Source of the DNA: a virus
Virus record (IMG/VR): IMGVR_UViG_3300046346_000045
Span: 1 to 37,537 of that record
Reading direction: 5' to 3' (one strand)
Length of the DNA stretch: 37,537 nucleotides
Part shown: positions 3,657-32,407 of the stretch, in pieces
How positions within the stretch are numbered: the first letter of the stretch is position 1
How the letters are laid out: each line of letters starts with the position of its first letter
Made by a program: the position numbers and the translations under genes
The notes under the pieces: model-generated
What the model was told of the DNA's origin: nothing
Databases searched by the model: none
Seen by the model: the letters and a program-made list of their open reading frames with translations, nothing else

Positions 3657-4364
3657 ATGGTATACACAACCAATGAGCTCATAACTAATGCTTTCTATGC
3701 ATCTGGCGTGGTTTCACGTGAATTTGAGACGGTTAGCGGACAACAAATCGGGGATGGCCTCAACTGGCTAAATGAAATTATTGATGAGAAGACGGTAGAC
3801 GATGGTATGGTTCCTTACGAATCTACTTACACGTTTACTGCAGTGCCAGGTCAGGAAATATACTCTATTCCGAACTTGATAGCAGTTGATACGCTTGTGT
3901 TCTTTTTGAATTCAGTGCGTTTCAGTATGGACTATAATAAGCGTAACAATTATTTTGGCTCTAATAGGGTTGAGAATATACAGACGCTTCCTTACCAGTG
4001 GTACTTTGAAAGAAAACTTGGTGGTGGTAATTTATATATTTACTTCACTCCAGATAAAGCCTACCCGATGGAATTACATGGGACATTTAGATTATCTGAG
4101 GTAGTTCTATTCCAGGACTTAAGCTTAACCTTGGATAGATTCTATATTACTTATCTTAAGTATTGCCTCGCAGATCGAATTTGCTCTGAATATAATTATG
4201 TAACCCCTCCTAATGTTGTTAAGCAATTAGGGAAATACGAAGGATGGATTGATAAGAAATCTAAGCTTCTTGATTTGCGTATTGATAAAATTTCCTCGCT
4301 TAATAGAGGCAATCAAACGTACTCTTGGGCATGGATCAATCTTGGTAGGGGCTTTAATCCTTAA
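3657..4364 (+). CDS. Head-tail connector / tail accessory factor, P22 gp4-like
   Basis: The protein has 235 residues (P22 gp4 has 166). The N-terminal helical part (TTNELITNAFYASGVVS, then GLNWLNEIIDEK) and the following beta segment TYTFTAVPGQEIYSI match the gp4 plan, in which the helices line the portal exit and the protein stabilises packaged DNA. GGGAGG precedes the ATG. It lies between the coat region and the gp10-like gene, the expected place. The extra length is C-terminal. Confidence 0.75.
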   Translation: MVYTTNELITNAFYASGVVSREFETVSGQQIGDGLNWLNEIIDEKTVDDGMVPYESTYTFTAVPGQEIYSIPNLIAVDTLVFFLNSVRFSMDYNKRNNYFGSNRVENIQTLPYQWYFERKLGGGNLYIYFTPDKAYPMELHGTFRLSEVVLFQDLSLTLDRFYITYLKYCLADRICSEYNYVTPPNVVKQLGKYEGWIDKKSKLLDLRIDKISSLNRGNQTYSWAWINLGRGFNP

Positions 4365-4396: not shown

Positions 4397-5986
4397 ATGG
4401 GAACAGAGTTATCAACGCCAGCACCAGTCAATGTGGTTGGATCAAGCAAGTTCGGCGTCTGGCCTAAAATATCGCTTGAAAAAACATACAATATGTACAT
4501 CAGTGATGAATGGATGATATCTTTCCCTGGGTATAAGAAAGTGGCTCAACCAGCTGTTAGTGGAGAAGGCCGCGCTATATTTCGTTCCGTTCGTGGTGGA
4601 TTTTTAATAGCCGTTATTGGTTCTGGTGTTTATAGATTAAATGCCAACCTTGCTCCAATATTTATAAGAAATATCTCTACTATAACTGGTGAAGTATTCA
4701 TAGATGAAAATCTCGAAGGTCAGATATGCATTGTAGATGGGGCTAACGCTTATATATATTATTACCCTGGTGGGTTATTCCAGACCCAAGCATTAGTAGA
4801 TGTAAATGGAGATCCAATTATTCCAGGGTATGTTTCATATCATAATGAATTATTTCTAATCGCTCCTGCAAAAAGCAGTCTATTTAACCAGAAATGGTAT
4901 TCATTTGAATTTGCAACCACGACTACAATAACCGTTTTCTCTGAGCAAACTTTATCTACAAAGCCAGATAGAACTGTTGCTGTAAAGCGAATTCCAGGAC
5001 GCGGTAATAACGTTATCGTACTTGGAGAATCTGTTGCTGAGATTTGGACCTTTACGGGTGCCGAGCCAGTAGGTGGGGTTTCACGGATATACACTCGTGT
5101 ATCCTCTTATAATATTGATAATGGCTGCATATCCGTTTCAACGATTGCCTCCGGGGAAGATACGATTGCCTGGTTGGCGGTTAACGAATCTAACAGCCCG
5201 GTTATCATGGTAACCAATGGCGCCGAGACTAAGCAGATATCCACGGATGGTATAGATCATCTAATGGAGAGCATTCAATTTCCTGAGCAGTCTACTGCCT
5301 TCTTCTTTCGTCAAAATGGTCATTTGTTTTACCAGTTAACTTTCTTTAATCCTGTTGACAATTTAACCTTGATACACGATTTTACAAGCAGCCAGTTCTT
5401 TCATCTAGCCGATGAAAGCATGAATTTTCATATAGCTCGAGATATCGTTTATTTTAACGAGAAATCATACTTAGTCTCTATTAGAGATGCAGCTATTTAT
5501 GAGATTAGCGATGAATTTAACACATACAATTACTCAACGCTTCCAGATTCAGTCGGAGAGGAAATCCCAAGGATTAGAATATGCAAAACAATACGTAAAG
5601 AGGATAGCTCTACATTTAGATGTGGCATGTTCACATTTTGGATAGAACAAGGTGTAACCTCGTTTACCTCTAATGAAGGTTGCGATGGCGTTCTTATAAC
5701 AGAGATTGAAGAGGACACAATAATCTCAGAATCAGGACAGACATTACTTAGCGAAGATGGATCTTGTATGACAGATAATAATAGGCCTCGAGTAGACTTA
5801 TCCTTATCTAAAAATGGAAATCAATCGTTTAGCAATATTGTTGGTCGAGAACTAAATGAAATGTCACATTTTAGAAATCAAATAAGGTGGCATCGAATGG
5901 GCCAAGCAAATGAGCTAACAATTCAATTGAGATTTTGGGGATTAAATAGATTCGTGTGTTCAGACGGAATCGCGGAGATCTATTAA
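4397..5986 (+). CDS. Packaged-DNA stabilisation protein / tail hub, P22 gp10-like
   Basis: The protein has 529 residues (P22 gp10 has 472). It opens with a region typical of the family (SKFGVWPKISLEKTYNMYIS, then a FPGYKKV segment) and continues as repeated beta-strand blades. It would form the tail hub under the gp4 ring, closing the channel after packaging and holding the fibres. The start has GGAG 5 nt upstream. Its stop overlaps the ATG of the next gene by one base (TAATG). Confidence 0.85.
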   Translation: MGTELSTPAPVNVVGSSKFGVWPKISLEKTYNMYISDEWMISFPGYKKVAQPAVSGEGRAIFRSVRGGFLIAVIGSGVYRLNANLAPIFIRNISTITGEVFIDENLEGQICIVDGANAYIYYYPGGLFQTQALVDVNGDPIIPGYVSYHNELFLIAPAKSSLFNQKWYSFEFATTTTITVFSEQTLSTKPDRTVAVKRIPGRGNNVIVLGESVAEIWTFTGAEPVGGVSRIYTRVSSYNIDNGCISVSTIASGEDTIAWLAVNESNSPVIMVTNGAETKQISTDGIDHLMESIQFPEQSTAFFFRQNGHLFYQLTFFNPVDNLTLIHDFTSSQFFHLADESMNFHIARDIVYFNEKSYLVSIRDAAIYEISDEFNTYNYSTLPDSVGEEIPRIRICKTIRKEDSSTFRCGMFTFWIEQGVTSFTSNEGCDGVLITEIEEDTIISESGQTLLSEDGSCMTDNNRPRVDLSLSKNGNQSFSNIVGRELNEMSHFRNQIRWHRMGQANELTIQLRFWGLNRFVCSDGIAEIY

Positions 5987-24606: not shown

Positions 24607-25533
24607 ATGTTAATGCATCAGACTACACAAAGCAACCTTTCAGCGCAATTTTCTAGCTATTTACCTCAAAACAGCCATAATTTACCCGATATTAAAGTAA
24701 TCTATCGCACTCAGGAAGAGATAGAACATCTTGAGACGATACGGTACGCCATACTCCAGCATAAAAAATCACGCAGACGACTAGCTGCAGGTATTCTCCT
24801 AAAAATAATCGGTTGGAGAGAAATGGAAGGTAAAAGGGGCGAGTGCGTCACCAGGCAGGAGAAGTTCGGCAAGGAAATACGTAAGTTCGGATATGACAAG
24901 GATCTAACCGCAAGACAAATAAAAAGGGTCATGGAATCATTAGTGAAGCATGGACTTATTCGATGTGAGCGTAGCGATAGGTTTGATTATAGGTCCGTAT
25001 ATAGATGTGAGACGACCAGCTTAGGACGAGACGCATACTTCCTCTACATCAAAAATAATGAGGGTCCAATCCAGATAAAAGCGCTCGACTTACCCACAAA
25101 ATCTGTGGATAACGATTGTATAACTCAAAAAAATTGCGGTACCGAAATAAAAATGGCACCTCGAAATCCTCTAAATTTGGTCAAAAATTGGTCAAAATCG
25201 GGCCAATTTCAAAAAAATGGCACCTCTAATATTAATATTAATATCTATAAAAGAAATATTAATATTAATATGGGATGTTCAAAAATTGAACAAATAACAA
25301 ACCATATCTTTTCTTTTTTCCATAAACCATACCTCGAACCCGGAGAAAAAATGATGAGGACACCAAAGGACTGGGCTAAAAACGGATTAGCACGACAAGC
25401 ACATGAGGTTACGTTAGATCTTCTCTGCAACAAGGAGATGAGCGAAGAAGAACATCGAAGCAAATACGACGAATTGTTCTTTAAGCAACTAGCTAAGATA
25501 CAACGCAAAAGGAAGAGAGAAGACAAGACATGA
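24607..25533 (+). CDS. Phage replication initiator (winged-helix, origin within the gene)
   Basis: The basic protein has 308 residues. A winged-helix-like region lies at about 78-140 (TRQEKFGKEIRKFGY, then a segment with TARQIKRVMESLVKHG, then IRCERSDRFDYRSVYRC), similar to the N-terminal part of phage replication proteins that bind iterons. The middle (about 160-222) is low-complexity because its DNA holds the origin repeats. The C-terminus has a helical domain with DWAKNGLARQAH. AGGA precedes the ATG. By analogy with lambda O, it would bind the internal origin and pass DNA to the DnaB encoded downstream. Confidence 0.75.
   Translation: MLMHQTTQSNLSAQFSSYLPQNSHNLPDIKVIYRTQEEIEHLETIRYAILQHKKSRRRLAAGILLKIIGWREMEGKRGECVTRQEKFGKEIRKFGYDKDLTARQIKRVMESLVKHGLIRCERSDRFDYRSVYRCETTSLGRDAYFLYIKNNEGPIQIKALDLPTKSVDNDCITQKNCGTEIKMAPRNPLNLVKNWSKSGQFQKNGTSNININIYKRNININMGCSKIEQITNHIFSFFHKPYLEPGEKMMRTPKDWAKNGLARQAHEVTLDLLCNKEMSEEEHRSKYDELFFKQLAKIQRKRKREDKT
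25177..25197 (+). repeat. Iteron pair TTGGTCAAAA, 11-bp period
   Basis: Two perfect 10-mers at 25177 and 25188 are one helical turn apart. A related inverted copy (GGCCAATTT, 25201-25209) follows. They are likely initiator binding sites. Confidence 0.65.
25228..25271 (+). repeat. Two 17-bp AT-only palindromic repeats (unwinding element)
   Basis: AATATTAATATTAATAT occurs at 25228-25244 and 25255-25271, 27 bp apart. The last 16 bases of each copy are self-complementary. They encode an Asn-Ile alternation in the protein, which suggests DNA rather than protein selection. Confidence 0.7.
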
Positions 25534-28787: not shown

Positions 28788-29042
28788 ATGAGTATTTCAG
28801 ATCAAGACTTTATAGATATGTTTGAGAAAGACAAAGAGATTGTGGATAAAGAGATAGGAGAGATTCTTACTCTTTTACAAATTTTTGTTCCAGAGTTTAG
28901 GAAGCTAGACGAGAATCTAACCAAGAAAGATTATATCTACTTTAGCTTGATGATCTCAAAGATAAAACATGCTTATGCAAACTTTAATGAAGCAATCTCT
29001 CTGTTCGCCTTGATTGAAGGTAAAGAGAAGAAGGCATATTAA
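28788..29042 (+). CDS. Small acidic helical protein, unknown
   Basis: The product has 84 residues: an acidic N-terminus (SDQDFIDMFEKDKEIVDK), then amphipathic helices. GAAGGAAG precedes the ATG and the stop overlaps the next start (TAATG). Function unknown. Confidence 0.6.
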   Translation: MSISDQDFIDMFEKDKEIVDKEIGEILTLLQIFVPEFRKLDENLTKKDYIYFSLMISKIKHAYANFNEAISLFALIEGKEKKAY

Positions 29043-30813: not shown

Positions 30814-31023
30814 ATGGCGCCAGACGAAGAGTTAACAGAAACACAAAAGATAGAAGCTTGTTTCCCTAAGCAGGAGCTACCGTATGAGCAACATCTGCTC
30901 ACAGCATTAGCATCCCTTAAGGAGTTAGAAGAAAACGTTTGGAGTGTAAATTATGAGCTTGCTCAAACAAACAAAGAGCTTCAGGGTATTAAAGAAGCAA
31001 TTTGGGCCATCACAGAAAGATAA
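30814..31023 (+). CDS. Small coiled-coil protein, unknown
   Basis: The product has 69 residues; the C-terminal half has heptad spacing (LKELEENVWSVNYELAQT). AAGGA lies 9 nt before the ATG. Immediately upstream of dnaB; a loader or helicase-accessory role is conceivable from position only. Confidence 0.55.
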   Translation: MAPDEELTETQKIEACFPKQELPYEQHLLTALASLKELEENVWSVNYELAQTNKELQGIKEAIWAITER

Positions 31024-31051
31024 AATATACACTTTAAGCAGGATGCTAATC

Positions 31052-32407
31052 ATGGAAGAAGACACAACGCTACAACACATGAGGATTCCTCCTCACTCTA
31101 TTGAAGCTGAACAAGCCGTGCTTGGCGGTTTAATGCTAACGACATGCGAAGACTCTTTGCACTTGGACTCAATAGAACGGCTTAGGCCTACTGTTTTCTA
31201 TCGCATAGAGCACCAGCTAATCTATAGGTCTATGATGCATCTCATGAAAGCTGGAATACCTATTGACGTAATAACGGTATCACAACACCTCAAGGACACT
31301 AATAAACTGCATGATGTTGGTGGTCTTGCTTATCTTGGTGAGCTTCATCATAACACTCCAAGCGCTGCCAATCTTGGCACCTACGCTAATGTTGTTTATG
31401 AGCATTATGTTCGAAGAGCGGTAATAAATGCCGGAACTAACATGGTAGAGTCCGGCTTCGATATCAAGGGTAGGACAACCGCTGAAGTTCTCGACCTAGC
31501 AGAGCAAAAGATATTTAATATCTCGCAGCATAGCAACAAGGTGGTTGGGCCTGAAGATGCAAAAGATATTCTTGCGCGGTCAATAACGCAGATACATCAT
31601 AGAATGCAGAACCAGGGCAAGATTACTGGTCTTGAGACTGGCTTTAGGGACCTGGACAAGATAACCACAGGCTTAAATCCAGGAGAGCTTATAATCATTG
31701 CTGGCCGACCTTCCATGGGTAAGACTTCCTTTGCCATGAATATTGCCGAATATGCATCAATAAAGAGCGATAAGACCGTACTTTTCTTTAGTATGGAGAT
31801 GTCCGGAGAGGATATATTAACTCGAATGCTCTCATCTATTGGTCGTATCGACCAGAACAAATTGCGTACCGGCATATTAAATGAAGAAGACATGGCAAGA
31901 TTTAGTAGTGCAGTTCCAATCATAACCAACGCAAAACTTAAGATTGACCATTCAGCATCATTATCTCCAATGGAAGTTCGCGCTCGTTCTCGCCGTATAG
32001 CTCGGGAATGCGATCTAGGACTTATCGTTGTTGATTATATAGGGCAAATGCAGATTCCTGGACATACGAGGGGCCGAGTCGAGGAAATATCCGAGATATC
32101 GCGGGCATTAAAATCATTAGCTAAAGAACTTAAAGTGCCGGTTATCGCCCTATCTCAGTTAAACCGAAGCCTAGAAGCTCGACCTAACAAGCGCCCTATC
32201 ATGTCAGACCTTCGGGATTCAGGGGCCATCGAGCAAGATGCGGACCTTATCGCCTTTGTGTACCGAGATGAGATTTACAATGAGGATAGTCCAGATAAAG
32301 GAACGGCCGAGATTATCATTGGCAAGCATCGCAATGGGCCTATAGGTACGATACACTTAACATTTGTGGGACAGTACACACGATTTGATAATCTTATGAC
32401 AGGATAA
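31052..32407 (+). CDS. dnaB: Replicative DNA helicase, DnaB family
   Basis: The protein has 451 residues from ATG 31052 (AGGA 9 nt upstream); the frame runs back to 30953 through the previous gene, which is not credible. The N-terminal DnaB domain begins RIPPHSIEAEQAVLGGLML. The RecA-like core has Walker A GRPSMGKT at about 217-224, Walker B LIVVDYIGQM near 322, and the KSLAKELKVPVIALSQLNR motif followed by SDLRDSGAIEQDAD. It unwinds DNA at the phage fork. No separate phage primase or loader is recognised. Confidence 0.95.
   Translation: MEEDTTLQHMRIPPHSIEAEQAVLGGLMLTTCEDSLHLDSIERLRPTVFYRIEHQLIYRSMMHLMKAGIPIDVITVSQHLKDTNKLHDVGGLAYLGELHHNTPSAANLGTYANVVYEHYVRRAVINAGTNMVESGFDIKGRTTAEVLDLAEQKIFNISQHSNKVVGPEDAKDILARSITQIHHRMQNQGKITGLETGFRDLDKITTGLNPGELIIIAGRPSMGKTSFAMNIAEYASIKSDKTVLFFSMEMSGEDILTRMLSSIGRIDQNKLRTGILNEEDMARFSSAVPIITNAKLKIDHSASLSPMEVRARSRRIARECDLGLIVVDYIGQMQIPGHTRGRVEEISEISRALKSLAKELKVPVIALSQLNRSLEARPNKRPIMSDLRDSGAIEQDADLIAFVYRDEIYNEDSPDKGTAEIIIGKHRNGPIGTIHLTFVGQYTRFDNLMTG

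Follow-up and report, generated by a model that had tools for sequence, protein, structure and literature searches.

Replication origins inside the gene of their own initiator are known from phage lambda and the RepA_N plasmids, and host DnaA boxes are known from iteron plasmids and ColE1. In lambda, ori is located within gene O, where a mid-gene array of iterons is adjoined by an AT-rich stretch (PMC5043065). In rep of the RepA_N-type plasmid pSK41, the N-terminal domain of the initiator binds repeats located midway in the gene, and the central part of the protein, encoded by the origin, is a dispensable linker; DnaA boxes were not detected in the staphylococcal plasmids (PMC5703833). P1, F, RK2, and pSC101 combine iterons bound by their own initiator with host DnaA boxes and a DNA-unwinding element (DUE) (PMC4980987). 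In E. coli, ChIP-seq has demonstrated that DnaA prefers closely spaced pairs of boxes (PMC11317965). In the DARS elements, box I is oriented opposite to boxes II and III with equal spacing in both loci, and the head-to-head contact is prominent (PMC5742627); a DARS is also present in the ColE1 origin, where such an element was first found (PMC5835720).

In the phage lineage described here, an initiator-gene origin and host DnaA boxes appear to occur together. We analyzed a complete 37,537-bp virus record (IMGVR_UViG_3300046346_000045), referred to as the window, along with related phage contigs. Judged from sequence comparisons, the origin very probably lies inside the phage's own initiator gene, and a participation of host DnaA in origin function seems reasonably likely. 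Taken together, a theta-type iteron/DUE origin in the initiator coding sequence, joined by a host-DnaA module, is probably the best description of this locus. What the present analysis would add to the known systems is a DnaA-box pair of fixed geometry that appears to be independent of the initiator. No description of a phage combining an in-gene origin with host DnaA boxes was found in searches of a collection of open-licence papers.

An earlier note on this DNA had drawn a parallel to lambda O. With regard to architecture the parallel holds, as in both cases the origin elements are located inside the initiator gene, with mid-gene iterons followed by an AT-rich unwinding stretch. It does not extend to detectable homology: Pfam gave no lambda O-like family for the window initiator or its relatives, and hhalign of the window initiator against lambda O returned a probability of 0.3%, whereas lambda O itself matches PF04492 and phrog_277. 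In addition, the iterons here comprise about 14 bp as opposed to 18 bp and are differently spaced, and no P-like loader gene was identified in this phage. The same note had stated that the lambda origin does not use host DnaA boxes, and none occurs at ≤1 mismatch in the lambda O-P region. Repeats inside the initiator gene are likewise shared with the RepA_N plasmids; the window initiator had no Pfam match to the RepA_N N-terminal domain at E≤0.01. Compared to P1, F, RK2, and pSC101, the phage initiator family and the iterons differ, a single inverted pair of boxes with fixed spacing is present, and the predicted origin is coding.

The initiator gene and related phages

The portal (phrog_156), the Sf6-type small terminase, the scaffold, and the head-closure proteins indicate that the window phage is a P22-like podovirus, and RecE- and RecT-like genes are located on the minus strand. 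The sister contig L021 joins genes from opposite ends of the window, so that the record probably represents a nearly complete, circularly permuted genome. GC skew along the window, proposed earlier as a check on the origin, was confounded by gene orientation. The relatives are uncultivated contigs that were reached by a terminase search, as searching with the initiator itself gave almost nothing: no match was obtained for the window initiator by tblastn against phage records or by a DNA-level search, nor for the L145 initiator in phages and plasmids. Scanning genome contigs with the terminase and with the initiator yielded neither a host nor a prophage. In one relative (L153:7024-9648), the large terminase gene is split into halves about 1.07 kb apart, the break following residue 177; an intron, an intein, or a homing-endonuclease insertion is possible. 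Contigs spanning the interval from the recombination genes to the terminase are available for ten phages (the window, L004, L021, L145, L146, L147, L148, L151, L152, and L153). Initiators homologous to that of the window are encoded in L145, L146, L147, L148, and L153 and are 24-40% identical overall.

The window initiator is encoded by an ORF of 308 aa on the plus strand (24607-25533) that matches phrog_428, 'replication initiation protein' (E=1.5e-5), and weakly phrog_2514. It shares 46% identity with its L145 counterpart across residues 1-211 and 42% with that of L146 across residues 1-234. Residues ~1-160 constitute the conserved N-terminal part, probably a winged-helix DNA-binding domain, and the origin DNA encodes residues ~162-222. 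A profile search of the PDB returned only weak matches to transcription regulators, and AlphaFold models were poor for the window initiator (pLDDT 35) as well as for the L021/L004 initiator. The window initiator lacks a C-terminal domain of ~150-170 aa that is present in L145, L146, and L153. The initiators of L004 and L021 showed no relationship to the window family in profile comparison; that of L021 matches a DnaD-like helicase-loader family, and that of L004 weakly matches another initiation family. In L004, a short leader ORF (4871-5002) is located 5' of the swapped initiator gene and resembles the first 25-30 residues of a window-type initiator; it looks like a remnant of the old initiator gene's 5' end that survived the swap. 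Judged by eye, L021 has a similar short ORF at 3948-4043.

The 3' end of the window initiator gene contains a small conserved gene encoding 60 aa that shares its reading frame (25351-25533, plus strand); it makes up initiator residues 249-308 and has its own GGAG and ATG at 25351. By tblastn, residues 249-303 matched separate ORFs in L004, L145, and L146. The small gene is thus separate from the initiator gene in the relatives, and in L021 it is duplicated (5101-5433 and 5430-5639). Its product is characterized by the motif DW...G..R.AH...Y...FFKQ...IQR and had no match in Pfam or PHROG. The contig L007 matches the window across 12.3 kb from position 25226 with a single mismatch, which makes an assembly error at the fused 3' end unlikely, though both records may share source material.

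Iterons and an AT-rich tract in the coding sequence

The homologous initiator genes contain iterons of the form AAAAATGTC(CGG/ACC)TC. In the window, the two 14-bp repeats reported in the earlier note are exact copies of AAAAATGGCACCTC on the plus strand at 25149-25162 and, 64 bp further on, at 25213-25226; the sequence occurs exactly twice in the record. Alignment further suggests a candidate decayed first iteron, AAAAAAATTGCGGT, at 25127-25140 on the plus strand, 22 bp ahead of the next one; L147 and L148 show the same distance. Including the window, five phages that encode homologous initiators have such iterons. L145 has AAAAATGTCCGGTC at 935 and 990, spaced by 55 bp, and L146 has AAATGTCACCTC at 1296 and 1360, with the same 64-bp spacing as the window. 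Three copies each are present in L147 (AAAAATGTCCGGTC at 3805, 3827, and 3882) and L148 (AAAAATGTCACCTC at 79, 101, and 156), and the two phages share a spacing of 22+55 bp despite differing iteron sequences. At most one iteron-like element was found in L153. Two short repeats at an 11-bp distance had also been noted before; they are copies of TTGGTCAAAA at 25177 and 25188 (25177-25197, plus strand), again exactly two in the record. As this repeat comprises only 10 bp and the relatives show just loosely similar sequence at the corresponding alignment column, its conservation is not claimed. The earlier note had made its proposal depend on conservation of the repeats in phages that keep the protein; the iterons are conserved in this way, but the TTGGTCAAAA pair is not clearly so.

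The window repeats are read in different frames, with the 14-mers at offsets 542 and 606 and the 10-mers at 570 and 581 from the ATG. Hence, they do not represent repeated peptides, and the protein does not account for them. In L147 and in L148, the three copies fill all three reading frames, and one DNA word in L148 is translated into the three peptides KMSPQ, KCHLE, and KNVTS. This pattern bears on the possibility that the stretch is a mere low-complexity protein linker, in which the repeats would have arisen from repeated residues and codon bias in the absence of any origin. The NININ peptide can indeed yield AT repeats by itself. Accordingly, when synonymous codon shuffles of the initiator ORF were used as a chance test, repeats of ≥14 arose in 276 of 5000 shuffles if AT repeats were allowed, and because of these AT repeats the longest-repeat statistic is uninformative. 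Out-of-frame, GC-containing 11-mer repeats were as numerous as observed in only 1 of 2000 shuffles, the iterons of the relatives and the window were matched in 0-8 of 2000, and a DnaA-box pair at ≤1 mismatch arose in 5 of 5000. A mere linker is very improbable, since iterons in different frames are conserved at repeated spacings between phages whose proteins are 24-40% identical, and since the DnaA pair also occurs outside coding DNA. The view that DNA rather than protein is selected here is borne out by the recurrence of iterons, spacings, AT-rich tract, and DnaA element in the relatives. The different frames of the iterons support the view that the origin-encoded part of the protein is a spacer that owes its sequence to the DNA. 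L004 has repeats of its own, 42 bp apart and 5' of its weakest 50-mer; these are in frame, so that the DNA-level argument is weaker for this phage.

In all five phages with iterons (the window, L145, L146, L147, and L148), the last iteron leads straight into an AT-rich tract. In the window, this predicted DUE is located at 25222-25271 and contains two palindromes at 25229-25244 and 25256-25271; both had been described previously, with a length of 17 bp that has to be corrected to 16 bp. A nearest-neighbour scan identified 25222-25271 as the least stable 50-mer and 25227-25306 as the least stable 80-mer of the entire 37.5-kb record. Within the initiator gene, the tract following the last iteron also has the lowest stability of any 50-mer in the window, L147, and L148; in L145, L146, and L153, the weakest 50-mer is located elsewhere.

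Initiators often bind their own operators. The iterons might therefore be regulatory sites for the initiator, acting in autoregulation or transcription control, with the origin elsewhere, for example near a lone second exact TTATCCACA on the minus strand at 28841-28849, inside the ORF 28788-29042. The position of the sites in the middle of the gene, adjoining the DNA with the lowest stability in the record, argues against this reading, as does the lack of any second inverted DnaA-box pair at ≤1 mismatch elsewhere in the window, and we regard it as quite improbable. The favored explanation is still an origin within the initiator gene.

The inverted DnaA-box pair

The inverted DnaA-box pair proposed earlier for the window, with one exact box, is present at 25090-25112; like all other elements of the putative origin, it lies inside the 308-aa ORF. 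Box I (TTACCCACA, 25090-25098, plus strand) has one mismatch and is the same in L153. Box II (25104-25112, minus strand) is an exact TTATCCACA, read as TGTGGATAA on the plus strand, and is located 5 bp from box I. These calls assume the DnaA specificity of the host. An inverted pair with a spacer of exactly 5 bp occurs, once per record, in eight of the ten phages covering the region (the window, L004, L021, L145, L146, L148, L151, and L153), and a control with the reversed pattern gave no hit in 13 records. L147 has a single box, and no pair was found in L152.

The position of the pair varies. A good mid-gene pair within the lineage is confined to the window and L148, where it is located 117-123 bp 5' of the last iteron, so that DnaA boxes stand beside the iterons and the predicted DUE; L145 and L147 hold one box at this internal position. 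In L004, L021, L145, L146, and L153, the pair is found at the 3' end of the initiator gene or beyond it, and 5' of the small conserved gene. In the more distant L151, which has a different initiator-like gene (4830-5519), it follows that gene at a distance of about 1.5 kb. Translation of the internal pair gives a partly conserved peptide, TKSVD, and selection at the protein level could thus contribute there. The pair has been kept in L004 and L021 despite their unrelated initiators, indicating that its reader is probably host DnaA.

We compared the pair with boxes assigned by us from the sequence at known E. coli loci. DARS1, located between bioD and uvrB, reads TTATCCACT-5-TGTGGATAA-3-TGTGTATTA and DARS2 reads TTATTCACC-5-TGTGGATAG-3-TGTGAAGAA; the ColE1-type origin contains TTATCCACA-5-AGGGGATAA. 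The window and seven relatives share with the DARS core that boxes I and II are inverted and 5 bp apart. In contrast, box III, which in DARS has the orientation of box II and lies 3 bp beyond it, is absent in the window. As the third box is absent or displaced, we describe the geometry of the pair as DARS-like without calling the pair a DARS. The pairs preferred by DnaA in E. coli were modelled as tandem boxes 2-3 bp apart, unlike the inverted phage pair with its 5-bp spacer (PMC11317965).

This geometry raises the question whether the pair is a DARS-like element carried by the phage rather than a loading site. ADP-DnaA would be loaded and ADP released, which would supply the phage origin with ATP-DnaA or upset the timing of the host. 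Spacing and orientation equal those of boxes I and II in DARS1, DARS2, and the ColE1 origin; the arms of the L151 pair are identical to the two of DARS1 and are followed by a third box at 3 bp, L153 has a weak third box at 3 bp, and the place of the pair is retained when the initiator changes. However, a convincing box III is absent in the window, L021, and L148, the third box is located at 4 bp instead of 3 bp in L004, L145, and L146, and no regulatory flank was identified. We consider this function unlikely, if conceivable. Equally tentative is the broader idea that a portable DARS-type module, situated in or after the initiator gene, outlives initiator swaps and that the phage might use it to recharge or capture host DnaA at its own origin.

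The pair might also act as a single-stranded hairpin with a DnaA box (A-site) that loads the helicase in the manner of the ABC-primosome, a mechanism known in vitro (PMC6127211). With arms of 9 nt and a loop of 5 nt, such a hairpin would be perfect in L148 (predicted -7.3 kcal/mol). Predictions are weak in four other phages (-2.5 to -4.0 kcal/mol), no compensatory change occurs among the eight sequences, and 8 of 72 cells are unpaired, all of which makes a hairpin improbable. The reading adopted below is that host DnaA binds the pair.

Inverted pairs were also collected from viral contigs in general. Among at least 131 pairs at no fewer than 120 loci, spacers peak at 2-7 and 13-17 bp, and those of 8-12 or 18-20 bp are almost absent, with the caveat that contigs may be kin. 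About one helical turn separates the two peaks, which suggests that the rotational relation between the boxes has to stay constant. A general role of 5-bp pairs as markers of phage origins was considered and dropped, as equally spaced pairs at 12 other viral loci had inconsistent neighbourhoods.

Proposed mechanism and helicase supply

Based on the arrangement of these elements, initiation might proceed as follows. The N-terminal domain of the initiator would bind the AAAAATG(T/G)C..TC iterons, and host DnaA would bind the inverted, 5-bp-spaced pair beside the array, as suggested by the boxes and their persistence after initiator replacement. Initiator and DnaA together may then melt the adjacent tract at 25222-25271, where the lowest duplex stability was computed. 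Finally, DnaA and/or the initiator would recruit a helicase, presumably host DnaB in most relatives and phage DnaB in the window. The lineage represents a natural experiment in which the initiator and the iterons changed while the 5-bp geometry of the DnaA pair stayed. Head-to-head pairs of DnaA boxes are otherwise known from DARS, and their role thereby becomes testable on a small replicon.

The window encodes a DnaB-type replicative helicase on the plus strand (30953-32407; Pfam DnaB_C, 2.6e-102). A phage DnaB is also present in L021, L008, and L009; none was detected in the remaining relatives, among them two 38-39 kb records. For the majority of relatives, which lack their own DnaB, a host factor bringing host DnaB would be useful. 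The patchy distribution indicates that the helicase gene is a variable gene in this lineage.
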